Shown: positions 1-7,964 of the stretch, piece after piece
Numbering within the stretch: the first letter of the stretch is position 1
Layout of the letters: each line of letters opens with the position of its first letter
Origin: Thermoflexales bacterium
GTDB taxonomy: Bacteria > Chloroflexota > Anaerolineae > Fen-1058
Assembly (NCBI GenBank): GCA_016931085.1
Contig: JAFGFO010000188.1
Location: forward strand, 1 to 7,964
Direction: 5' to 3'
Length of the DNA stretch: 7,964 nucleotides
The notes under the pieces: model-generated
What the model saw: only the letters and a program-made list of their open reading frames with translations
Told to the model about the DNA's origin: nothing
Databases searched by the model: none
Translations under genes and position numbers: made by a program

Positions 1-210
1 CCGGTCGTGTTGGGGCGCGCCGAGGAGCGCGGGGTGCCCATCCTGCTGGTCAACATGGATACCTTGAGCACGGTCGAGGCCGTCGAGCGCTTTTTCGCCC
101 GCAGCCGCTTCCAGCAGCCGGAAAAGCTCGAGCGCTTTGCCGCTTTGCTGGACGAATACTTTGACTTTGCGGCTCTGTACGCCAGCCTGGGACTGAAAGT
201 GGGAGTGTAA
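1..210 (+). CDS. DRTGG-domain / phosphotransacetylase-like protein, C-terminal end (5' truncated)
   Basis: The frame is open from base 1 (it begins Pro-Val-Val-Leu-Gly) and stops at TAA 208-210, so only about the last 69 residues are in the window. The stretch VPILLVNMDTLSTVEAVERF followed by a helical, Phe-rich tail (FAALLDEYFDFAALYASLGL) resembles the end of the DRTGG domain in proteins that combine a BioD-like P-loop ATPase with a DRTGG module and are often annotated as phosphotransacetylase family proteins. That identification rests on recall of the family pattern. The P-loop and most of the protein lie outside the window, so no catalytic residue can be checked. The GTG at position 7 is internal, not a start. 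The gene is followed by a repeat-rich spacer rather than by a closely spaced partner. Confidence 0.6.
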   Translation, partial: PVVLGRAEERGVPILLVNMDTLSTVEAVERFFARSRFQQPEKLERFAALLDEYFDFAALYASLGLKVGV

Positions 211-236
211 AAGCTCCTCGCCAGGCACGAAAATAC

Positions 237-330
237 CTGTAACACAGAGAGGCACAGAGGTAACACCGAGATGCAGAGCTACACAGAGAAAAAGCTCTGT
301 GTAGCTCTGTGTCTTTGTGTAGCTCCGTGT
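237..330. repeat. Inverted pair of CACAGAG-type tandem repeats forming a long hairpin
   Basis: The left half repeats CACAGAG-like units about every 10 bp (near 243, 253, 264, 272, 282). The right half carries the complementary CTCTGTG-like units (near 295, 305, 314, 323). At the centre, 276-288 pairs perfectly with 295-307 (13 bp) around the 6-nt loop 289-294, and the stem continues outward to 270/313 with two G-T wobbles. It occupies the spacer between the DRTGG gene and the HExxH gene and may act as a terminator for the first, although no T-run follows it directly. A related CGCAGAG array lies at the other end of the window (7931-7957). Confidence 0.8.
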
Positions 331-349
331 AAGACTATTTTTGGGAATA

Positions 350-859
350 ATGACTGTGTCTGATCTCCCGGCGAAGTTGCCCGGCTGCTGCATCCGCCTG
401 CTGGCGCGGCCGGGCTGGTTCGAGGCGAATCTGCTCAGATCCGTCCGCCTGGCCTTGGCTAACCCCTTCGTGCGCCTCATCCAGCGCATGGCTGGCGTGC
501 CGGTGGCCGCCACGGCGATCGGCGACGTCATCTATTTTCGCCTGCCCGAGTATTTCGACCCTCATACACTTGGCGGTATTAGCCTGATCGCTCACGAGCT
601 GCGGCACGTGGAACAGTGCCGGGAGTGCGGCGGGCTTGTGCCCTACGCCATCCTGTACACCTGGGAGTACCTGCGCAAGGGCTATGGCACGACGATCTCG
701 TTCGAGGCCGAGGCCTACGAGCTGGGCGACGTTGTGTACGAGCACCTGCTGCGCGAATTCGACGCCAACCCCGGCCAGCCCCCCTGTGTGGGAGTGGCCG
801 GCCACCGGCTGAACCCGCACTATCGACTCTTGGTGCCGGCCCCGGTTTTGAATCGCTGA
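350..859 (+). CDS. DUF4157-like HExxH protein (putative zinc metallopeptidase fold)
   Basis: A 169-residue protein starting at ATG 350. A TTG three codons upstream (341) is possible but less likely. Neither start has a strong Shine-Dalgarno sequence. The key motif is AHELRHVEQ at residues 81-89, giving HExxH (H82, E83, H86). It is followed by an aromatic helix (YTWEYLRKGYG, about 103-113) and an acidic FEAEAYE segment (118-124) that could supply a third metal ligand. This order matches DUF4157-type domains, which typically read HELxHVxQ, then WEYL, then ExEA. No signal peptide or clear membrane segment is seen, though residues 1-50 are fairly hydrophobic. Substrate and partners are unknown. 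Some DUF4157 proteins occur with contractile injection systems or toxins, but nothing here supports that. The last codons (Leu-Asn-Arg-stop) lie in an inverted repeat shared with coaX. The metallopeptidase role is an inference from the motif. Confidence 0.7.
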   Translation: MTVSDLPAKLPGCCIRLLARPGWFEANLLRSVRLALANPFVRLIQRMAGVPVAATAIGDVIYFRLPEYFDPHTLGGISLIAHELRHVEQCRECGGLVPYAILYTWEYLRKGYGTTISFEAEAYELGDVVYEHLLREFDANPGQPPCVGVAGHRLNPHYRLLVPAPVLNR

Positions 860-943
860 CTCGCTGACTCGCCGAAGAGCGCTGATTGGCCGAGCGCGCC
901 TTCAGCGGTCTCACTCCGCTTCGCGTCAGCGCTTCAGCGATTC
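850..943. repeat. Nested inverted repeat with 8-bp tandem units between convergent genes
   Basis: GAATCGCTGA (850-859) is exactly complementary to 934-943, and AGCGCTGA (878-885) is exactly complementary to 926-933. The two right arms are adjacent, so the pairs form a nested hairpin with a left-side bulge (860-877). The left side is also a tandem of 8-bp CTCGCTGA-like units. The outer arms contain the TGA stops of the HExxH gene (857-859) and of coaX (934-936). It may act as a bidirectional terminator, although no T-tract is present. Confidence 0.75.
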
Positions 944-1698
944 AGTTCGTAGATCAGCCGCAGCCCGATCAACGTCAGGTGCGGCTCGACGGCCTCGATG
1001 ACGTCGGTCTCGGCCGCGATCAGCTCCGCCAGGCCGCCGGTGGCAATCACGCGTACGCCGGGGCCTAGCTCGGCGCCCATCCGCTTGACCAGGCCCTCGA
1101 CCATGCCGGCGTAGCCGAAAATCAGGCCGGACTGCATGGAGTGAATGGTGTTTTTGCCGATGGTAAGCGGTGGGCGGGCCAGCTCGACCTGGGGCAGCTT
1201 GGCCGCGAAACGAAACAGCGCCTCGGCGCCGGTGGCCAGGCCCGGCGCGATCGCCCCGCCTAAATAGTCCCCCGTGTCGCTGATGGCGTCAAAGGCGGTG
1301 GCGGTGCCAAAGGCGATGGCGATGGCCGGCCCGCCGTACAGTCGATAAGCCGCCGCCGCGTTGGACACGCGGTCGGAGCCTACTTCGGCCGGGTGGTCGG
1401 TGCGGATGCGTACGCCGGTGCGCACGCCCGGCCCGACGATGACGGGCGTGTGGTACAGATAACGCTGCGACAACTCGTTCATCACCGGCGTCAGGGGCGG
1501 GACGACGCACGAGATCGCGCAGCCACTCACCTCCTCGATCGGGATACTCTGCGAGGCAAACAGGTTCAGCAGCAGCATGGCGTACTCGTCAGTGAGCTGG
1601 GCGCGGTTGGTCGAGATACGCCAACTGGCGACGTATTCGTCGCCGCGAAACAGGCCGAATTTGATATTGGAGTTGCCGACGTCGATACAGAGTAGCAT
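934..1698 (-). CDS. coaX: Type III pantothenate kinase (CoaX)
   Basis: A 254-residue protein, the usual length for CoaX, which phosphorylates pantothenate with ATP in the first committed step of CoA synthesis in the cytosol. Type III enzymes are known to lack the CoA feedback inhibition of type I. Landmarks in order: DVGNSNIKFG at 6-15 (N-terminal phosphate motif), T37-DEYAMLL, GVRIRTDHPAEVGSDR ending at 110 with the conserved catalytic Asp109, FGTATAFDAIS at 130-140, GGAIAPGL at 147-154, GKNT at 181-184 and TGGLAEL at 220-226. One odd residue: the position before FGTA is Ala129 (codon GCC), where the family normally has Asp (DxGTA). The start ATG is 12 bp after the VTT gene stop, with only a weak ribosome-binding site, which suggests co-transcription and perhaps translational coupling. 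The function call is secure; activity is less certain because of Ala129. Confidence 0.93.
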   Translation of the reverse strand: MLLCIDVGNSNIKFGLFRGDEYVASWRISTNRAQLTDEYAMLLLNLFASQSIPIEEVSGCAISCVVPPLTPVMNELSQRYLYHTPVIVGPGVRTGVRIRTDHPAEVGSDRVSNAAAAYRLYGGPAIAIAFGTATAFDAISDTGDYLGGAIAPGLATGAEALFRFAAKLPQVELARPPLTIGKNTIHSMQSGLIFGYAGMVEGLVKRMGAELGPGVRVIATGGLAELIAAETDVIEAVEPHLTLIGLRLIYELNR

Positions 1699-1710
1699 AG
1701 TGATTGTCCG

Positions 1711-2283
1711 TCAAGTTTGGGGTGCCAGCCATTCACCGCCCCAGTAACCCAGGTACGCAAAGACGATGTTCTTGAGCACCTTGCCGGCGGTGGCGGCCAG
1801 CAAGTATTGCCACACGGGCATGCACAGCGCCCCGGCCACCATCCCGGCCACGTCAAAGACCGGATTGGGAATAGCCGCTAAAATAAAGATGATCCACGCC
1901 CCGTAACGCCGCATCCAGGCTGCCATCACCTGGTAACGTGCCCCATCCTTGATCAGGCCCTGGCCGCTGTAACCGGTCATGTAGCCGGTCAGCTCGCCCA
2001 CCGCCTGTCCAAAACCGGCCACGACACCCACCGCGATGGGGTTGAACACGGCGCCCATCACGGGCGTAATGGCCAACCCTGGCAGAGGCAGGATCAGTGT
2101 GGCATTGCTCAACAGCCCGACGATAAAGATCGCGACGTAGCCGTAGGATTGGAACTGCTGTATCCGGTCACGAAAATAGAACGCCGCCGCCGTGGCCGCG
2201 ATCAGGACCACGAGCGTCATCACCTGCACCAGGCGCAGCCGCCAGGTGGGTGGTGGAGGTGAGAGTGTGAGTGGCGTATCCAT
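1711..2283 (-). CDS. VTT/DedA-superfamily (SNARE-associated, TVP38-like) membrane protein
   Basis: A 190-residue integral membrane protein. Hydrophobic segments lie at about 19-37, 48-66, 71-98, 129-150 and 156-180. The family hallmarks are a Gly-rich GFGQAVGELTGYMTGYSG segment (about 90-107) and ILAAIPNPVFDVAGMVAGAL (134-153), corresponding to the re-entrant/Pro-containing half of the VTT domain found in DedA, TVP38 and related proteins. Members are linked to phospholipid scrambling or carrier-lipid flipping, but the substrate here cannot be told from sequence. The start ATG at 2283 fits the N-terminal Pro-rich cytosolic tail and is preceded by a GAGG-type site 10 nt upstream. It is first in a two-gene operon with coaX and has a promoter at 2418-2446 and a structured leader. 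No functional link to CoA synthesis is evident. Confidence 0.85.
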   Translation of the reverse strand: MDTPLTLSPPPPTWRLRLVQVMTLVVLIAATAAAFYFRDRIQQFQSYGYVAIFIVGLLSNATLILPLPGLAITPVMGAVFNPIAVGVVAGFGQAVGELTGYMTGYSGQGLIKDGARYQVMAAWMRRYGAWIIFILAAIPNPVFDVAGMVAGALCMPVWQYLLAATAGKVLKNIVFAYLGYWGGEWLAPQT

Positions 2284-2411
2284 ACGTGTTTAGCCTCTAC
2301 TCAAGTGCACGCTGCCTCGCGTGCGCATCTAGGCTATTCGCTATACCCGGTTGAAATCGATACATTCCAGCGTGCAAAACTTGCATTTCAACAGCTTATT
2401 CCGATAAGCCT
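2284..2411 (-). promoter_or_regulatory. Structured 5' leader of the VTT-coaX operon
   Basis: This is the predicted untranslated leader from a start near 2411 to the VTT ATG. It holds three inverted repeats: 2394-2399 with 2404-2409 (6 bp, 4-nt loop); 2350-2357 with 2385-2392 (8 bp) enclosing a small 2373-2377/2381-2385 stem; and 2307-2312 with 2319-2324 (6 bp, 6-nt loop). No known riboswitch class was recognised. It could be a regulatory leader, or the stems could be incidental. Confidence 0.4.
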
Positions 2412-2417
2412 GCAGCT

Positions 2418-2446
2418 ATTGTAGCACAAAGCCGGGCGCTTGCCAA
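2418..2446 (-). promoter_or_regulatory. Sigma70-type promoter for VTT-coaX
   Basis: Read on the minus strand: -35 TTGGCA (2446-2441, 5/6 match), 17-bp spacer, -10 TACAAT (2423-2418, 5/6 match) preceded by an extended TGC. The predicted start is near 2411. It is back to back with the plus-strand promoter at 2471-2499, leaving 24 bp between the two -35 boxes. Confidence 0.65.
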
Positions 2447-2470
2447 TGGAGCGAATGAATGAGCCACGGC

Positions 2471-2499
2471 TTGATGTGCAAAACGAGTTCTGTTATAAT
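2471..2499 (+). promoter_or_regulatory. Extended -10 promoter giving a leaderless mRNA
   Basis: -35 TTGATG (2471-2476, 4/6), exactly 17-bp spacer, perfect -10 TATAAT (2494-2499) preceded by TGT (extended -10). A start 7 nt after the -10 falls on the A of ATG 2506, so the transcript should have essentially no 5' leader. This also decides the start of the next gene against the upstream TTG at 2440 and ATG at 2446. Confidence 0.7.
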
Positions 2500-2505
2500 A
2501 GCACT

Positions 2506-3822
2506 ATGAAAACCCTGGTTGTCATTCCTAGCCTCCAGCACAAATATACTTTCTCTGCGCCATTGACCTGGCTGTTGAGCAGCCACGTCGAATGCGTCGA
2601 CGGCCTGTATGGATTTTCCCTGAACAAAGAAACTGCCCAAAAGTACGACCGCTTCATCGTGGAACTCAACTGGTTCATTGAGCTGTACGAATTCCAACTC
2701 ATTACTCGCTTCATCAAGAAACACAATCCACATTCATCGATACTGTTCGGAGGACTGTATAGCCAACTGAGATATCGAGAGATATTCAAGCATACGCCCG
2801 TCGATTACTTCATTCGGGGCGATGCTGAGGTGCCGATACAGCACTTTGTCGAAGGCGAGGATCCAAGAAAAATCCCGAACATGGTTGGAAGGGATTTCGA
2901 AAACCCCCACTCGTACATCTTTCAGCAGAAAGACTATCCCGGTCTCGAATTCAATCTCGATTGGTTCCCGGAATTCGAAAAGCGATGGCCCGAATTCCCT
3001 GCTCCTGGTGCCGACGTCGACCCGGATTTCAGCATGATGCCGCTTCTTCCAAACTATTGGGAAAGGCCCGGCCGAAAACTGCCGCCAGAATTTCAATGGC
3101 GAGTGCCGCCAAGAGGCGGAAGGTACCATTTACCCATGCTCATCACGGCCCGCGGATCCTGCCCGGTCGCCCACAAGGGATGCGAGTACTGTATGGGATC
3201 CAAAACCGAATTGGGCCGGTCGATCTACGGGAGACCCCCCGTGATCCTTGACAATGAGACCTGTGTCCTTCTCTTGAAGAAAATTGAAAAAAAATTCGAA
3301 CAGGTTTCGCTGTACATCAACAGCCCGTTCGCCTACGATTTCTCGCATGAACGGTTCGACCTGGATGCGACCATAGAAATCGATTCCAAGAGCACGGTCG
3401 AAGATGCTGCCAGGATCCTTCATGCCTTCCGCAGTGCACGTCTCCACACCGCGTTGTATGAGGAAGGCCTGGTCGGCGCGGAAATACGCAAAAACATTGA
3501 GGAATATAGCGCGATCGAAGATGACAATCACAAGGTATACTTTTTTGCTTCTCCAGAGGATGCCGCGAATCACCACATACCACCCCAGCGAAGATTGTAT
3601 TCAGAACTGTTATTTCCCGCCTGGGCTCACTGGGATTTCTACACTGATCGGAAAAATGCCCTGGCCAGGAGCAGTTCCTGGTACTTTGTGACCGGCCAGG
3701 TCAACTTGTATCCCGTTCCCAGGCAAATGCTCGTGCGCGTTGTCCGATTCTTTGTCACTCGTATCGCATTCCTCTTGCACCGTTTCAAGATCGTAGACCT
3801 GAAAAAAAAGCTCGTTTTTTGA
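2506..3822 (+). CDS. B12-binding-domain / radical-SAM-like protein of unknown function
   Basis: A 438-residue protein from ATG 2506 (MKTLVVIPSLQ). The frame is open upstream to TTG 2440, but the promoter covers that stretch. The N-terminal half follows the cobalamin-binding pattern of B12-binding radical SAM proteins: an initial beta strand, the SSILFGG turn at about 84-90, and VDYFIRGDAEVPIQHFVEG at about 107-125, equivalent to the usual D-x-V-x-R-G-E-x-E. The DxHxxG cobalamin-ligand motif is not seen. The SAM-type cluster motif is TARGSCPVAHKGCEYC, with Cys219, Cys226 and Cys229 (Cx6CxxC instead of Cx3CxxC). Later strands (VSLYIN, DATIEID, HTALYEEGL) fit a TIM-barrel-like core, and the C-terminus is basic and hydrophobic. 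Two A8 runs (3287-3294, 3802-3809) and visibly more A/T than the flanking genes hint at transfer. Family membership is likely; reaction and substrate are unknown. Confidence 0.65.
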   Translation: MKTLVVIPSLQHKYTFSAPLTWLLSSHVECVDGLYGFSLNKETAQKYDRFIVELNWFIELYEFQLITRFIKKHNPHSSILFGGLYSQLRYREIFKHTPVDYFIRGDAEVPIQHFVEGEDPRKIPNMVGRDFENPHSYIFQQKDYPGLEFNLDWFPEFEKRWPEFPAPGADVDPDFSMMPLLPNYWERPGRKLPPEFQWRVPPRGGRYHLPMLITARGSCPVAHKGCEYCMGSKTELGRSIYGRPPVILDNETCVLLLKKIEKKFEQVSLYINSPFAYDFSHERFDLDATIEIDSKSTVEDAARILHAFRSARLHTALYEEGLVGAEIRKNIEEYSAIEDDNHKVYFFASPEDAANHHIPPQRRLYSELLFPAWAHWDFYTDRKNALARSSSWYFVTGQVNLYPVPRQMLVRVVRFFVTRIAFLLHRFKIVDLKKKLVF

Positions 3823-3840
3823 TAGTATACGCTATCGACC

Positions 3841-3868
3841 TTGGCCAGGTCACATCAACTTTTGTAAT
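3841..3868 (+). promoter_or_regulatory. Possible promoter for the adenosine-specific kinase gene
   Basis: -35-like TTGGCC (3841-3846, 4/6), 16-bp spacer, -10-like TGTAAT (3863-3868, 5/6). It would give a leader of about 20 nt containing the AAGGAG site. Read-through from the radical-SAM-like gene 74 bp upstream is the alternative. That spacer also carries the short inverted repeats GATAG/CTATC (3821-3836) and GACCT/AGGTC (3836-3850). Confidence 0.35.
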
Positions 3869-3896
3869 GCCCTGGGAGGGCGGGTAAGGAGTAACT

Positions 3897-4379
3897 ATGG
3901 AAGTCAAGCTTGTCTCTATCGAAAAGCCGGAAGACGTCAACTTTATCTTGGGTCAGACTCACTTTATCAAGAGCGTCGAAGACATTTACGAAGCCGTGGT
4001 CTCGACGGTGCCTGGCGCCAAGTTCGGCCTGGCCTTTTGCGAGGCTTCAGGCGCGTGCCTGGTGCGAGTGGATGGCACCGACCCCGACATGATCGAGCTG
4101 GCCAAGAAGAACGCACTGGCGCTGGCGGCCGGTCACAGCTTCATCTTGTTCCTCGAGAACGTCTACCCCATCAACGTGCTGAACGCGATCAAGATGGTCC
4201 CCGAGGTATGCCGTATCTTTTGCGCCACGGCCAATCCCACCCAGGTGATCCTGGCCGAGACCGGGCAGGGGCGGGCCATTTTGGGCGTCGTCGACGGCGA
4301 GTCACCCAAGGGTGTCGAGGCTGAAGCGGACACGGCCTGGCGTAAGGACTTTTTGCGCAAGATCGGCTATAAGCGCTAG
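3897..4379 (+). CDS. Adenosine-specific kinase (DUF355/Adenosine_kin family)
   Basis: A 160-residue protein that matches the whole length of the adenosine-specific kinase family (COG1839 type, mainly known from archaea and some bacteria), which is unrelated to PfkB-type adenosine kinases. Recognisable blocks: KLVSIEKPEDVNFILGQTHF (4-23), PGAKFGLAFCEASGACLVRV (39-58), ELAKKNALALAAGHSFI (about 67-83), PINVLNAIKMVPEVCRIFCA (91-110), NPTQVILAETGQGRAILGVV (113-132) and the terminal WRKDFLRKIGYK. A strong AAGGAG (3886-3891) sits 5 nt before the ATG. The proposed role is phosphorylation of adenosine to AMP, based on limited family data. It is on the same strand as the radical-SAM-like gene, 74 bp downstream, and convergent with panD. 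Its TAG stop is the first three bases of a palindrome shared with panD. Family assignment is firm; physiological role is uncertain. Confidence 0.9.
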   Translation: MEVKLVSIEKPEDVNFILGQTHFIKSVEDIYEAVVSTVPGAKFGLAFCEASGACLVRVDGTDPDMIELAKKNALALAAGHSFILFLENVYPINVLNAIKMVPEVCRIFCATANPTQVILAETGQGRAILGVVDGESPKGVEAEADTAWRKDFLRKIGYKR

Positions 4380-4436
4380 GGGCGGGTTTCCCTGGCCTGC
4401 GCTGGGCGCAGCCCAGGACAGGCAAACCCGCCCCTA
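4377..4436. repeat. Large palindrome (TAGGGGCGGGTTT) that supplies the stops of two convergent genes
   Basis: Bases 4377-4389 pair perfectly with 4424-4436 (13 bp), enclosing a second small hairpin (CTGGG/CCCAG around 4402-4416). TAG 4377-4379 is the stop of the adenosine-specific kinase gene, and the minus-strand TAG 4436-4434 is the stop of panD. The outer sequence matches the palindrome at 7789-7816, so this looks like a dispersed repeat family with variable centres. A role as bidirectional terminator is plausible, but there is no T-tract on either side. Confidence 0.85.
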
Positions 4437-4808
4437 CAGGCGGCCTGACACGCGGCGGACCTCGGTCGGGCGGTTGTGGCCGTCCACGAACACAATCGCC
4501 GGCGCGTAATCTTCCGGTATAGGCTCAGACAGGGTGGTGTAGGCCATGATGATGACCTTGTCGCCCACGCTCACCAGGCGGGCGGCCGCCCCGTTGAGCT
4601 GGACCTGGCCGCTGCCCGGCGGGCCGGGGATCACGTAGGTCTCCAGGCGCGCGCCGTTGTCTACGTCCACCACCTGCACCCGCTCGTAGACGCGAATGCC
4701 GGCCGCCTGCAGCAAGTCGGTGTCAATCGTGATGCTGCCCTCATAGTTCACGTCGGCGCCGCTCACCGTGGCGCGGTGGATTTTGCTGTGTAAAAAGGTC
4801 CGGTACAT
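4434..4808 (-). CDS. panD: Aspartate 1-decarboxylase (PanD) proenzyme
   Basis: A 124-residue protein, typical of PanD, which decarboxylates L-aspartate to beta-alanine, the substrate PanC joins to pantoate. The start MYRTFLHSKIHRATVS carries conserved Lys9 and His11. Tyr22 and Gly24-Ser25 in YEGSIT are the self-cleavage site that produces the pyruvoyl group on Ser25. NGARLETY (50-57) supplies the Arg and Tyr of the active site, LNGAAARL (70-77) the conserved Asn-Gly-Ala-Ala stretch, and GDKVIIMAY (82-90) the last strand. All expected key residues are present, so it should be active after processing. It is the last gene of the pan cluster, 65 bp after the panC stop, with a weak AGGGA site before the ATG. 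The TAG stop lies in the 4377-4436 palindrome. Confidence 0.95.
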   Translation of the reverse strand: MYRTFLHSKIHRATVSGADVNYEGSITIDTDLLQAAGIRVYERVQVVDVDNGARLETYVIPGPPGSGQVQLNGAAARLVSVGDKVIIMAYTTLSEPIPEDYAPAIVFVDGHNRPTEVRRVSGRL

Positions 4809-4823
4809 TTTTCCCTGCCTTGC

Positions 4824-4878
4824 GATTACGTCTTACGTTTTACGCTTTACGTTTCACGTCTCCGCCTCACGTTTCACT
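4824..4878. repeat. Degenerate heptamer array (NTTTACG) between panC and panD
   Basis: Consecutive 7-bp units on the plus strand: GATTACG, TCTTACG, TTTTACG, CTTTACG, TTTCACG, then a 13-bp degenerate stretch ending CTCACG, then TTTCACT. The last unit contains the panC stop (TGA on the minus strand, 4876-4874). The array fills nearly all of the panC-panD spacer. Confidence 0.85.
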
Positions 4879-5710
4879 CTTCGAGCAGAAAATTATCGAT
4901 CAAGCGCGTGCTGCCCACCCGCACGGCCATCGAGAGCAGCACGCCACGGCTCGGCGCGCCCAACTCGGCCAGCGTCAGCGGGTCGGCGGCGCTGACGTAT
5001 TCGGGGCTAGCCAGCAGCTCACTAGCCAGGACATCGCGTATAGCCCGGCGCAGCGCCTCGCCGTCTCGCTCGCCGGCCTCCCAGGCCGCCTTGGCCGCGC
5101 ACAGCGAGCGGTAGAGCACCACTGCCGCCTGGCGCTGCGCGGGAGTCAGGTAGCTGTTGCGGCTGGACATGGCCAACCCGTCCGGCTCGCGCACGGTGGG
5201 GCAGACGACGATCTCGACCGGAAAATCCAGGTCGCACGCCATCTGCTTGATGACGGCCACCTGCTGGGCGTCCTTCTGCCCAAAATAGGCCCGCTCGGGC
5301 TGAAAGATGTTGAACAGCTTGGCGACGACGGTGGCCACACCCCGGAAATGCCCCGGCCGGGCCGCGCCTTCGAGCGGCAGCGTCACCTGCTCGACGTTCA
5401 CGTAGGTCTGAAAACCCGCCGGATAGAGTTCGTCCGGCTCGGGCGTGAATACCAGCTCGACGCCGGCCTCCTCCAGCAGTCTCAGATCGCGCGGCAGGTC
5501 GCGCGGGTAGCGTGCCAGGTCCTCGTGCGGGCCGAACTGGGTCGGGTTGACAAAGATACTGGCTGCCACGTGCTCGCATTCGGCCCTGGCGCGTTGGCAC
5601 AGCGACAGGTGCCCCTCGTGCAAATAGCCCATCGTCGGCACCAGCCCCCACGTGCCTGCCCTGCGAGCGCGAATCCGCCGCACGTCCGCGATTGTCGTGA
5701 CCGTCTCCAT
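4874..5710 (-). other. panC: PanC part: pantoate-beta-alanine ligase
   Basis: From internal Met323 (ATG 5710-5708) this is 278 residues, the usual length of a free-standing PanC. Counting from that Met: METVTTIADVRRIR, then VPTMGYLHEGHLSL (24-37) with the HxGH nucleotide-binding signature (HEGH 31-34), SIFVNPTQFGPHEDLARYPR, the FGQKDAQQ loop, and AMSSRNSYL (KMSKS-like). The C-terminus is VGSTRLIDNFLLEE. All expected ATP and pantoate motifs are present. The start ATG lies inside the heptamer AGTATGG, and the neighbouring units supply GGAG and AGGA, so the repeat could itself serve as a ribosome-binding site. Confidence 0.9.
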
Positions 5711-6676
5711 ACTTCCTACTCCATACTTCCTACTCCCTACTCTTACCAGGCGCAGCAGCGTCTCGTTGACCGGCGTCGGCAAGCCCAGTTGGCGGCCAAG
5801 CTCCACGACTGCCCCGTTGATGGCCTCGATTTCAGTGGGTGTGCCGCGCAGCACGTCTTGCAGCATGGACGAGCGGTTGACGGCTGTCTTGCGGGCCACT
5901 TCCACAGCCCGGCCGGCCGGGTCGGCGTAGGGTAGGGCGATGCCCAACGCCTGGGCAACAGCGGCCGTCTCGCGCGCGGCCTCGCTCATCAGCTCGCGTG
6001 CGTCTTCTTGCTCGGCCAACGCGCCATTGGGCACGCGCAGGATGGCCGTCAGGGCGTTGATGGCGGCGTTGACCACCAGCTTACCCCACACCAAGGCGCG
6101 CGCGTCGTCCACCAGGCTAGTCTCAAATCCCGCTTGCCTCAGCAGCGTGGCCAGCTCTTGCAGGCGTGCCTCGGTGGCTGGCGTGGTAGCAAGCACGGTT
6201 GGGCCATCGCCGCCGTGGCGGACGTGCCCCGGCCCCAGCAGGGTGGCGCCCTGCATCGACACGCCCAAGGCGGAACGCTGCGGCCCGACAACGGCGACCA
6301 ACTGCTCGAGATTGCCCAGCCCATTTTGCAGCGTGAGCGCCAGTCCGCCTGGCCTGAGGATTTGGGCTGCCCAAGCCGCGGCGCGCGCCGTCTGGTGGCT
6401 CTTGACCAGCACCAGGACCAGGTCAGTCTGCACCCCGTCTGGCTTGTCCAGGGCGCGGACGGCCAGCCGCGTCTCAGCCTCGCCTTGCACGAAGCGGATG
6501 CCTTCTTCCCGCAGCACCCGGACGCCTTCGACCCACGTGCCCAGCATCGCCACCTGGTCTACCACTGGGGCCAGCCGGGCGCCGAACAGGCACGCCATGG
6601 CACCCGTGCCGATGATGGCGAGGGAGGAAGAATTGCGTATTGCGTATTGCGTATTGCGTATTTGCCGATTTGCCAT
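4874..6676 (-). CDS. PanE-PanC: ketopantoate reductase and pantothenate synthetase in one reading frame
   Basis: One uninterrupted 600-codon frame encodes two complete enzymes. Residues 1-322 are PanE (NADPH-dependent reduction of ketopantoate to pantoate) and residues 323-600 are PanC (ATP-dependent joining of pantoate and beta-alanine). They meet at a 42-bp heptamer array (5707-5748) that encodes a Gly/Arg/Val-rich linker with no stop in this frame and stops in both other frames. Either a bifunctional protein is made or PanC starts internally at ATG 5710, which has GGAG 8 nt upstream. The frame's start is ATG 6676, itself inside another heptamer array, with an in-frame TAG two codons upstream. 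No ATG, GTG or TTG follows in frame before the conserved nucleotide-binding motif, so this start is nearly forced. It begins 17 bp after the panB stop, without a recognisable ribosome-binding site, so coupling to panB translation is likely. I do not recall PanE-PanC as a standard fusion. The enzyme identities are firm; the fusion is not. Confidence 0.88.
   Translation of the reverse strand: MANRQIRNTQYAIRNSSSLAIIGTGAMACLFGARLAPVVDQVAMLGTWVEGVRVLREEGIRFVQGEAETRLAVRALDKPDGVQTDLVLVLVKSHQTARAAAWAAQILRPGGLALTLQNGLGNLEQLVAVVGPQRSALGVSMQGATLLGPGHVRHGGDGPTVLATTPATEARLQELATLLRQAGFETSLVDDARALVWGKLVVNAAINALTAILRVPNGALAEQEDARELMSEAARETAAVAQALGIALPYADPAGRAVEVARKTAVNRSSMLQDVLRGTPTEIEAINGAVVELGRQLGLPTPVNETLLRLVRVGSRKYGVGSMETVTTIADVRRIRARRAGTWGLVPTMGYLHEGHLSLCQRARAECEHVAASIFVNPTQFGPHEDLARYPRDLPRDLRLLEEAGVELVFTPEPDELYPAGFQTYVNVEQVTLPLEGAARPGHFRGVATVVAKLFNIFQPERAYFGQKDAQQVAVIKQMACDLDFPVEIVVCPTVREPDGLAMSSRNSYLTPAQRQAAVVLYRSLCAAKAAWEAGERDGEALRRAIRDVLASELLASPEYVSAADPLTLAELGAPSRGVLLSMAVRVGSTRLIDNFLLEE
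5707..5748. repeat. Heptamer array (CCATACT/TCCTACT) at the panE-panC junction
   Basis: Six consecutive 7-bp units: CCATACT, TCCTACT, CCATACT, TCCTACT, CCCTACT, CTTACCA. The total of 42 bp equals 14 codons, so the array keeps the frame. On the minus strand it encodes the linker Val-Arg-Val-Gly-Ser-Arg-Lys-Tyr-Gly-Val-Gly-Ser and the panC Met. Confidence 0.9.
5711..6676 (-). other. panE: PanE part: 2-dehydropantoate 2-reductase
   Basis: Residues 1-322 of the joint frame. Residues 2-15 are encoded by the heptamer array and look like non-functional filler before the Rossmann strand LAIIGTGAMACLFGARL (19-35). The NADPH loop is GTGAMA (23-28), where Ala28 replaces the usual last Gly of GxGxxG. 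Family residues present: Lys92 in VKSHQT, TLQNGLGN (115-122), the catalytic Lys199 in WGKLVVNAAINALTA with Asn203 and Asn207, Ser270 in SSMLQD, and Glu282 in TEIEAINGAV. The C-terminal helix LPTPVNETLLRLV (299-311) is where single-domain PanE proteins normally end, so the domain is complete before the linker. Confidence 0.88.
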
Positions 6677-6709
6677 TTGCTATTCGCTATTTGTTATTCG
6701 CTGTTCGCT
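6632..6709. repeat. Heptamer array (ATTGCGT, then ATTTGCC/ATTCGCT) at the panB-panE junction
   Basis: Four perfect ATTGCGT units (6632-6659) are followed by ATTTGCC, GATTTGCC, ATTTGCT, ATTCGCT, ATTTGTT, ATTCGCT and GTTCGCT. All are 7 bp except one 8-bp unit. The array contains the panB stop (TAA, 6696-6694) and the panE start (ATG, 6676-6674), and encodes the last few residues of PanB and about the first 15 of PanE. Confidence 0.9.
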
Positions 6710-7554
6710 CTTTCCATCTTCAAAAACTCTTCCCACTCCTCGTCGGCAATGGCGAAGGAGTGTTCGGCGGCCGGGAAAGCCCGGCTTTCCACGTCGGCCT
6801 TGTAAGCGGCCAGGGCCTGGCCGATTGCCTGGTGCAGTTGCACGTACTGCTTGACGAACTTGGGCGTAAAGCGCTCGAACAGTCCTAGCAGGTCGTGGGT
6901 GACCAGCACCTGCCCGTCGCAGCCTCCCCCCGCGCCAATGCCGATGGTGGGGATGGATAGCTTACGCGAGATGAACTCGGCCACACGCTCGGGCACTTTT
7001 TCCAGCACGATGCCAAAGCAGCCGGCGTCTTGCAGGGCCAATGCGTCATCCAGCAGCTTGGTGGCCGCCTTGGCGGTGACGCCCTGGGTGCGGTAGCCGC
7101 CCAATTGGCTGATGCTCTGCGGCGTCAGCCCGATGTGTCCCAGGACCGCGATGCCGGCGTCCACGATCGTGCGCGTGATGGGCGCGACGGCCCGCCCGCC
7201 TTCGAGTTTGACGGCGTCCATATTGCCTTCCTTGAGAAAGCGCCCGGCGTTGCGTACGGCCTCGGCGGCGTCAGCCTGGTACGACATGAAGGGCATGTCG
7301 CCGATCAGGAAAGCGCTCTTCGCGCCGCGTGCCACGGCCTGGCAGGCGATGATCATCTCCGTCATAGTCACCGGCACGGTGCTGTCGTAGCCCAGCACGA
7401 CCATGCCGTAACTGTCACCCACCAGCAGCGTATCGATCCCGGCGCGGTCGGCTGCCTGGGCCATTGGATAGTCGTAAGCGGTGAGCATCGTGATCGGCTC
7501 GCCGCGTTCTTTCTTGCCGTGCAGTTCTGGTATCGTCACCTTTTTGCGTGTCAT
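6694..7554 (-). CDS. panB: 3-methyl-2-oxobutanoate hydroxymethyltransferase (PanB)
   Basis: A 286-residue protein that transfers a hydroxymethyl group from 5,10-methylene-tetrahydrofolate to 2-ketoisovalerate, making ketopantoate. The ATG at 7554 is chosen over the GTG at 7572 because AAAGGAG (7568-7562) lies 7 nt before it and would be inside the coding region otherwise. Motifs: MLTAYDYP (23-30), LLVGDSYGMVVLGYDST with metal-binding Asp47-Ser48, FLIGDMPFMSY with Asp86, DAVKLEGG with Lys116 and Glu118, GHIGLTPQS (139-147), IVLEKVP with catalytic Glu185, and IGIGAGGGCDGQVLV (204-218). All key residues are present. The C-terminal tail MERANSE is partly encoded by a heptamer repeat that also supplies the TAA stop. 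It is the first gene of the minus-strand pan cluster, behind the promoter at 7746-7774 and a hairpin-containing leader. Confidence 0.96.
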   Translation of the reverse strand: MTRKKVTIPELHGKKERGEPITMLTAYDYPMAQAADRAGIDTLLVGDSYGMVVLGYDSTVPVTMTEMIIACQAVARGAKSAFLIGDMPFMSYQADAAEAVRNAGRFLKEGNMDAVKLEGGRAVAPITRTIVDAGIAVLGHIGLTPQSISQLGGYRTQGVTAKAATKLLDDALALQDAGCFGIVLEKVPERVAEFISRKLSIPTIGIGAGGGCDGQVLVTHDLLGLFERFTPKFVKQYVQLHQAIGQALAAYKADVESRAFPAAEHSFAIADEEWEEFLKMERANSE

Positions 7555-7584
7555 GATTTGGCTCCTTTCCACCCGGCATCAAAA

Positions 7585-7613
7585 GCGCCTCCCGAGCGAC
7601 GGCCGGGAGGCGC
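7585..7613 (-). terminator. Terminator-like hairpin in the panB leader (possible attenuator)
   Basis: Bases 7585-7594 pair with 7604-7613 (10 bp, very GC-rich, 9-nt loop). On the minus strand the stem is followed directly by TTTT and lies 30 nt upstream of the panB ATG. The upstream segment 7633-7643 is complementary to 7592-7604 (11 bp with a 2-nt bulge), which would compete with this stem. The T-run is short, so termination may be weak. Confidence 0.5.
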
Positions 7614-7681
7614 GATGACCTCTGTGTGCTATGGCCGTCTCGGTCGCCGCTGCGATCCAAGCGGATGTGCGAAAATTCTTC

Positions 7682-7703
7682 TTTATCCGCGAATGCGGAT
7701 AAA
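7682..7703 (-). promoter_or_regulatory. Perfect hairpin in the panB leader
   Basis: TTTATCCGC (7682-7690) pairs with 7695-7703 (9 bp) around a 4-nt loop. It falls 36-57 nt after the predicted transcription start of panB. No T-tract follows on either strand, so it is more likely a structural leader element than a terminator. Confidence 0.5.
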
Positions 7704-7745
7704 ACGTCTGCTTCGCGCCGCACCAACGGTCGCGAGCCTGGTATG

Positions 7746-7774
7746 AGTATACCAGCTTATTGGCTATTTGACAA
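7746..7774 (-). promoter_or_regulatory. panB: Sigma70-type promoter of the pan operon
   Basis: Minus strand: -35 TTGTCA (7774-7769, 5/6), exactly 17-bp spacer, -10 TATACT (7751-7746, 5/6) preceded by TGG (extended -10). The predicted start near 7739 gives a leader of about 185 nt before the panB ATG. Confidence 0.7.
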
Positions 7775-7788
7775 GCGATCCCGTATGT

Positions 7789-7816
7789 GTAGGGGCGGTT
7801 CGCGAACTGCCCCTAC
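7789..7816. repeat. Near-perfect 28-bp palindrome, second copy of the TAGGGGCGG family
   Basis: GTAGGGGCGGTTCG is complementary to the following 14 bases with one G-T mismatch (7797/7808). The outer part matches the arms of the 4377-4436 palindrome, here without an inserted centre. It lies upstream of the pan promoter. Confidence 0.85.
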
Positions 7817-7856
7817 GCCTGGAGGCTTGATCGCGATGGCTGTGCCGGTGCTCGTC

Positions 7857-7885
7857 TTGTTCATCGTTCAGGACGTGTTTATAGT
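7857..7885 (+). promoter_or_regulatory. Weak promoter candidate pointing right
   Basis: TTGTTC (7857-7862, 3/6), 17-bp spacer, TATAGT (7880-7885, 5/6). It could serve a gene beyond the right edge. Apart from this, the palindrome and the terminal repeat, 7775-7964 shows nothing that looks coding. Confidence 0.25.
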
Positions 7886-7930
7886 ATTACCCGCGAAAAA
7901 CTAGCACGATCGCGAAGATTTTCGCTTGCG

Positions 7931-7957
7931 CGCAGAGCACGCAGAGAGCGCAGAGTT
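7931..7957. repeat. CGCAGAG tandem array with 9-bp period
   Basis: Three CGCAGAG units begin at 7931, 7940 and 7949, exactly 9 bp apart. The array probably continues past the window edge. It resembles the CACAGAG units at 237-330. Confidence 0.7.
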
Positions 7958-7964
7958 TTTAAAA

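Follow-up and report, generated by a model that had tools for sequence, protein, structure and literature searches.

We uncovered short tandem arrays of degenerate 7-bp units at the joints of a vitamin B5 (pan) gene cluster in an uncultured Thermoflexales bacterium, where one array carries the start codon of panE and another lies inside a single open frame that runs from PanE into PanC. The DNA analysed, hereafter the window, is a stretch of 7,964 nucleotides (assembly GCA_016931085.1, contig JAFGFO010000188.1, positions 1 to 7,964). Arrays of the same period are enriched at gene boundaries in three of four related genomes, and the orthologous pan joints differ from one lineage to another. A known kind of feature has had an unusual local result here, of which the fusion frame is the striking part.

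Heptamer arrays at the joints of the pan cluster

The cluster lies on the minus strand. Its genes comprise panB (6694..7554 from its ATG; PF02548, E 7.6e-116 for the frame 6694-7572), whose relative P0121 begins with MTRKK at the same place; panE; a panC portion of 278 codons counted from an internal ATG (4874..5710; TIGR00018, E 4.3e-95 on frame residues 323-598); and panD (4434..4808; PF02261 and TIGR00223). The best loci matching the pan frame are mostly from Chloroflexota or Anaerolineales. Four period-7 runs were detected across the window, at 4826-4862 (score 17.5), 5710-5742 (13.5), 6632-6662 (24) and 6668-6712 (18), whereas 100 first-order Markov shuffles of the window gave at most 12.0. 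These scores bear out the initial annotation, which had proposed heptamer arrays at the panB–panE, panE–panC and panC–panD joints with coordinates that prove correct to within a few bases. Its claim that the units differ among the three joints likewise stands: the units, ATTGCGT, GCGAATA-like, GGAGTAG/GAAGTAT and GTRARRC, are unlike from array to array.

The panB–panE joint holds two minus-strand arrays: a perfect one at 6632..6662, which reads ATTGCGT on the plus strand (4.4 copies, 100% matches), and a degenerate one of coding-strand GCGAATA/GCAAATA-like units at 6668..6712, which covers both the panB TAA and the panE ATG. Between PanE and PanC, the array at 5705..5742 (minus strand) can be read with either period; taken as period 14 it spans 5705-5741 and scores 20.5 (95% matches). 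At the panC–panD joint, coding-strand GTRARRC units extend from the panC stop towards panD (4826..4877, minus strand), the prolongation to 4877 coming from a Tandem Repeats Finder row (4835-4877). The codons that were said to lie in the arrays are indeed contained in or touched by them, namely the panB TAA (6694-6696), the panE ATG (6674-6676), the panC ATG (5708-5710) and the panC TGA (4874-4876), the last through the Tandem Repeats Finder row alone, which was entered by hand. The further statement that the arrays leave almost no other spacer needs correction at the panC–panD joint, where 17 bp of additional spacer that contain AAGGCAGGGA still precede the panD ATG.

Heptamers are the array type of the pan joints but not the only one in the window, which also has period-8 and period-9 arrays at 849-875, 922-945 and 7928-7955. 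Two period-8 arrays cover two more stop codons, those of the ORF 341-859 (849..875; score 14.0) and of the type III pantothenate kinase gene 934-1698 (922..945; score 11.0; PF03309). Altogether, arrays overlap four of the eight stops of genes in the window; by position, 0.032 per stop would be expected (P=6.5e-5, a post hoc value that includes the hand-entered row).

Several other features of the window were recorded. The convergent ORF and kinase gene are separated by the two period-8 arrays (849-945), which point towards each other and whose arms are partly complementary by eye; the ORF itself is small, matches the eCIS core domain PF13699 (28.9 bits; cut-off 22) and displays a HELRH motif by eye. 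CACAGAG-type repeats with a period of about 9-10 occur at 239-331, which by eye is an imperfect inverted repeat, and at 7928-7955. Inspection by eye also picked out an inverted repeat between convergent genes at 4380-4440 (GGGGCGGGTTT...AAACCCGCCCC) and a palindrome upstream of panB at 7788-7820 (GTAGGGGC...GCCCCTAC). A 460-codon ORF at 2440-3822 weakly matches the B12-binding/radical SAM family TIGR04190 (31.2 bits against a cut-off of 500). No Rfam family was found in the window at gathering score.

Gene ends within the arrays

At the panB–panE joint, the only in-frame ATG, GTG or TTG between the preceding stop and the conserved PanE domain is the ATG at 6674-6676, which lies 54 nt upstream of the domain and inside the array. 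As this is the sole start upstream of the domain, about 15 N-terminal residues (MANRQIRNTQYAIRN) are coded by the repeat, the perfect array at 6632..6662 being translated into this part of PanE; the PanE profiles begin at frame residue 15-20, with one at 128. Among the relatives, an in-frame start is found 6 nt before the conserved PanE start in 27 of 38 panB–panE entries, which count one genome twice (L004 and L221). Other N-termini are seen in the PanE relatives P0011 (83%; MASQQISESANRKPPKEGDSAIRNSSPLVIIG) and P0013 (72%; LEVESWKLESRSPTSNLQSPTSNIAILG), the latter of which looks heptamer-coded by eye, as judged from the protein letters. In P0001, the clustered protein of the window itself, the start is an internal ATG within the PanE domain, so that the beginning of this domain would be clipped. 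When the length of the joint is changed in silico by seven values from -21 to +21, the PanE start survives, by frame arithmetic, only at -21, 0 and +21.

The stops of panB and panC present a different picture, in that the arrays would mostly adjoin a stop at its usual place, as far as sequence comparison can tell. Counted from its ATG, PanB has 286 aa, as does P0121 (92% identity), and the two end, when compared at the protein level, in FLKMERANSE and FLEMEDAKSE; the relatives P0122-P0132 (80-85%) have 283 or 284 aa. PanC has 278 aa from its ATG, and the relatives P0241 (86%) and P0242 (81%) end at an equal length of 278 aa; hence, the panC stop is not supplied by the array. The initial annotation, which held that the arrays supply start and stop codons, is thereby upheld for the panE start and contradicted for the panC stop, and for the panE stop the reverse holds, as that codon is absent, a point that had been overlooked.

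Indeed, panE itself lacks a stop codon: both profiles fall in a single open frame of 600 codons without an intervening stop (4874..6676, minus strand), with PanE at residues 20-313 and PanC at 323-598, and the frame runs through the array as the linker VGSRKYGVGS into the panC ATG. That ATG is preceded by an AGGA stretch derived from the repeat unit. Judging from the open frame, the product would be a single PanE–PanC polypeptide, or PanC made by internal initiation at 5710, or both. A fused frame is found at one of 44 panE–panC junctions, the window's only (the 44 again include one genome twice, L004 and L221). The relatives P0011 (PanE) and P0241 (PanC) are separate proteins; as both have a longest contig of 15,693 nt, they are probably encoded on one contig, likely a sister of the window's. 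Fused PanE–PanC proteins are found elsewhere (P0002-P0007; 49-58% identity) and, like the window frame, have both domains in one predicted protein with PanE first, whereas their linkers, unlike the window's, do not look heptamer-coded by eye in the protein letters. A literature search on PanE–PanC fusion returned nothing relevant by title and abstract start. The fusion is sensitive to the length of the array, at the level of frame arithmetic only: changes of +7, +14, +21 or -7 give a PanE of 317 aa whose stop lies 5-33 nt upstream of the panC ATG; at 0 and -21 the two remain fused, in 600 and 593 aa, and at -14 panC is read in another frame.

Array placement in related genomes and at orthologous joints

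We surveyed array placement in stretches of four related genomes, G001 (788,924 bases), G002 (400,000), G003 (205,219) and G005 (400,000), whose pan loci were already known to contain period-7 arrays when they were picked; the G001 contigs C3, C11 and C12 had already turned up in a unit-pattern search. Genes were called with a custom-made, unvalidated caller, and the boundary counts use genes with a score of at least 40 and a length of at least 300 nt; the stretches L002, L005, L015 and L028 trained the caller and were excluded from the counts, and the stretch L151 overlaps L005. The commonest array period is 7 in all four relatives (74, 48, 19 and 11 arrays in G001, G002, G003 and G005, the order kept below), and in this sense period 7 is over-represented among the periods in their stretches. 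Arrays interior to called genes, some of which may be false genes, were omitted (27/74, 9/48, 5/19 and 0/11). Of the remaining period-7 arrays, 44/47, 28/39, 12/14 and 1/11 have a start or stop at most 20 bp away, where random placements of the same length, not interior to genes, give expected shares of 0.39, 0.30, 0.14 and 0.15. Hence, the placement at gene boundaries proposed in the initial annotation goes beyond random in G001, G002 and G003 and does not in G005. Overlap with stops follows the same division (19/47, 12/39, 4/14 and 0/11; expected 0.17, 0.11, 0.05 and 0.06; P=0.00012, 0.00097, 0.0041 and 1). Period-8 arrays too are found near either gene end (24/25, 10/12, 3/4 and 1/2; expected 0.42, 0.26, 0.14 and 0.18). 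A role of the arrays as general suppliers of start codons was rejected, as the overlap with starts is at or below expectation in G001, G002 and G005 and borderline in G003 (8/47, 3/39, 3/14 and 0/11; expected 0.17, 0.11, 0.06 and 0.05; P=0.54, 0.83, 0.056 and 1).

The two gene ends are not equally affected. Co-directional gaps hold 82 period-7 arrays; contact is with the stop alone in 27 of these, with the start alone in 8 and with both codons in 3 (P=0.0019). The 36 period-8 arrays in such gaps are distributed likewise (15, 3 and 2; P=0.0075). Moreover, the 5′ edge of the period-7 arrays falls at -5..+1 of the stop in 17/61 cases against 6.4 expected (P=0.00012); the corresponding clustering of period-8 edges is not significant (5/26, P=0.13). 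The asymmetry between stops and starts can be explained by tolerance, since a coding sequence can be lengthened at its 3′ end and will run into a stop before long, but at the 5′ end a ribosome-binding site and a start must be preserved. We also compared gaps with and without arrays, counting a gap as tight if it is at most 40 bp after the array is masked, the control gaps being left unmasked for weak arrays. Tight gaps make up 28/44, 13/33, 4/12 and 1/9 of the array gaps, against shares of 0.36, 0.26, 0.41 and 0.30 of the array-free gaps (P=0.00016, 0.063, 0.8 and 0.96). Counted in this way, tight joints are significantly preferred in one of the four genomes, so that targeted insertion is indistinguishable from tolerance.

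Orthologous pan joints were scanned for arrays of periods 7-10 with a score of at least 11, the window being included and loci that lack panE and panC within 900 nt being dropped. Arrays occur at 7/39 panB–panE and 6/44 panE–panC junctions, with period 7 in 5 and 4 of these, and in 0/128 control windows inside panC; the panB–panE gap is at most 20 bp in 21/39. The in-frame share at these loci is biased, as L201-L207 owe their top ranks in part to a common reading frame of panE and panC. Most of the orthologous pan joints have no array, so the arrays are dispensable at these joints. Some of the orthologous junctions bear other units.

The repeat units at orthologous joints vary between lineages. 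The doubled ATTGCGT unit (ATTGCGTATTGCGT, at most one mismatch) is matched 119 times in G003, where a reversed control is matched 3 times, and 0-7 times in the other eight genomes. At its panE–panC joint, the locus L213 displays GCGAATA-like units followed by CAATACG units, which are both of the families at the window's panB–panE joint, below the score cut. A consensus common to the heptamer units was apparent with 51 distinct units; it was rejected on a retest with 37 representatives that lie more than one mismatch apart, in which the observed information was equalled or exceeded by 22 of 100 nulls. Five published units placed against the all-units profile fall at the 80th, 90th, 91st, 35th and 91st percentiles of heptamers of the same GC, which is too weak for use.

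Relation to known heptamer systems and origin of the arrays

The arrays of the window have counterparts in several bacteria. The short tandemly repeated sequences of heterocystous cyanobacteria are short tandem heptanucleotides from another lineage. The comparison with these repeats made in the initial annotation fits in kind, and the closest published match that we found is the GGGAATC family of Xanthomonas. As described in the account of that family, its heptamers occupy the space between aligned ORFs, at most 50 bp from stop codons and also across them, and form inverted pairs; the same source mentions three heptanucleotides in Calothrix PCC7601 and gives slippage as a hypothesis for heptamer abundance (PMC4692102). 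Both the Xanthomonas GGGAATC and the Nostoc GGGGA(C/T)T repeats share with the present arrays the period of 7, degeneracy and a location mostly between aligned ORFs, near or over stops; they differ in having one G-rich, quadruplex-type unit, whereas here we find many families of units that are not G-rich, and the passages on them in that account say nothing on gene fusion or array-borne start codons (PMC4692102). A location between aligned ORFs near or over stops is seen in the window and in G001-G003, not in G005; a G-rich, GGGAATC-like unit is not among the window units. The TAACTGA arrays described in marine Beggiatoaceae are alike in lying beside start codons, in offering stops in all three frames in one orientation and in some overlap with ORF ends; they are of one unit and mostly just upstream of starts, whereas the excess here is at stops (PMC4679880). 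Within the Chloroflexota, 22 heptamer satellites are reported for Chloroflexus aurantiacus, whose GATAGRA arrays are likewise heptameric but of one unit (PMC6749651). One further report concerns repeats of 20-21 and 52 nt (PMC8161180), and another gives short repeats as weakly enriched around bacterial genes, with no enrichment in bacterial genomes on average (PMC12699852). No treatment of arrays fusing or restarting genes in Chloroflexota was found by title and abstract start in the one library searched.

We think it probable that these are slippage-grown heptamer arrays of the known bacterial kind that are tolerated at operon joints. Arrays would arise repeatedly by slippage and persist where they are least harmful, at the joints between genes, with tolerance acting as the sieve; both the slippage and the sieve are inferred. 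In three of the four relatives they tend to begin at the stop of the upstream gene and end short of the start region of the next. As 7 is not a multiple of 3, sequence arithmetic suggests that each 21 bp of an array takes its unit through every reading frame in turn, and a unit holding a stop or an ATG would offer that codon in any frame, so that gene ends may survive the invasion. At panB–panE, where the usual panE start is absent, the array ATG stands in for it; at panE–panC, an array about as long as the short spacer of the relatives stays open without a stop, which should give a PanE–PanC polypeptide and/or internal initiation of PanC.

Certain observations sit poorly with tolerance: G005 has no boundary preference, tight joints are over-represented in G001 even per gap, array edges are concentrated at the stop, a pattern that does not have to follow from tolerance alone, and 27/74, 9/48 and 5/19 arrays were called gene-interior in G001, G002 and G003. 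Some of these would suit a mechanism by which heptamers are targeted to stop codons or operon joints, or lengthened there, in favour of which the edge clustering and the G001 excess speak; we regard it as improbable, given that the per-gap test is not significant in G002, G003 and G005, and neither is the period-8 edge test. Somewhat more credible, though still unlikely, is a functional intercistronic element, in which the arrays, often consisting of inverted heptamer arms capable of a hairpin, would be retained at operon joints because they end or restart translation, protect the upstream mRNA end or set the coupling to the next gene. It would accord with the preference for co-directional joints and the closeness to stops in three genomes, with the unit-derived AGGA before the panC ATG and with the long heptamer-periodic hairpin arms in single gaps of relatives (e.g., L126, L189 and L137). 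Yet most orthologous joints are array-free, the three window junctions fold no better than shuffles (z -0.14, 0.53 and -0.51), and 57 array gaps fold not significantly better than 120 sampled from 540 array-free gaps (P=0.11), with stems of at least 9 in 23/57 versus 38/120. Nor do inverted-pair hairpins occur at the window's pan junctions, where the longest exact stem is 5-6. An oriented stop-supplying function was rejected, there being no significant orientation bias of stop-bearing units (30 vs 19, P=0.15). The translational coupling put forward in the initial annotation likewise gains no direct support from these results. Long hairpins made of two inverted heptamer arrays directly follow a stop codon in gaps of relatives (L126, L133, L137 and L189). 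The least plausible of the alternatives is that the array length was misassembled or missequenced, so that the frame is not really fused and panE ends at a stop within the array: the changes of +7, +14, +21 or -7 given above would indeed yield a separate 317-aa PanE, but the arrays, at 31-45 bp, are shorter than ordinary reads, and fusions of PanE with PanC are known elsewhere (P0002-P0007).

Heptamer repeats are over-represented in many bacteria and poorly understood, and here one orthologous operon joint can be traced in empty, differently filled and coding-altering states, which makes targeting versus tolerance testable. It is a long shot that in some Chloroflexota the arrays are seeded specifically at stops and form a standing source of gene-end remodelling and of copy-number-dependent switching between separate and fused enzymes; if true, this remodelling would create new N- and C-termini, replace native starts and remove stops, as in the PanE–PanC frame. 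At the pan joints, the arrays show a concrete way for adjacent genes to become one frame.
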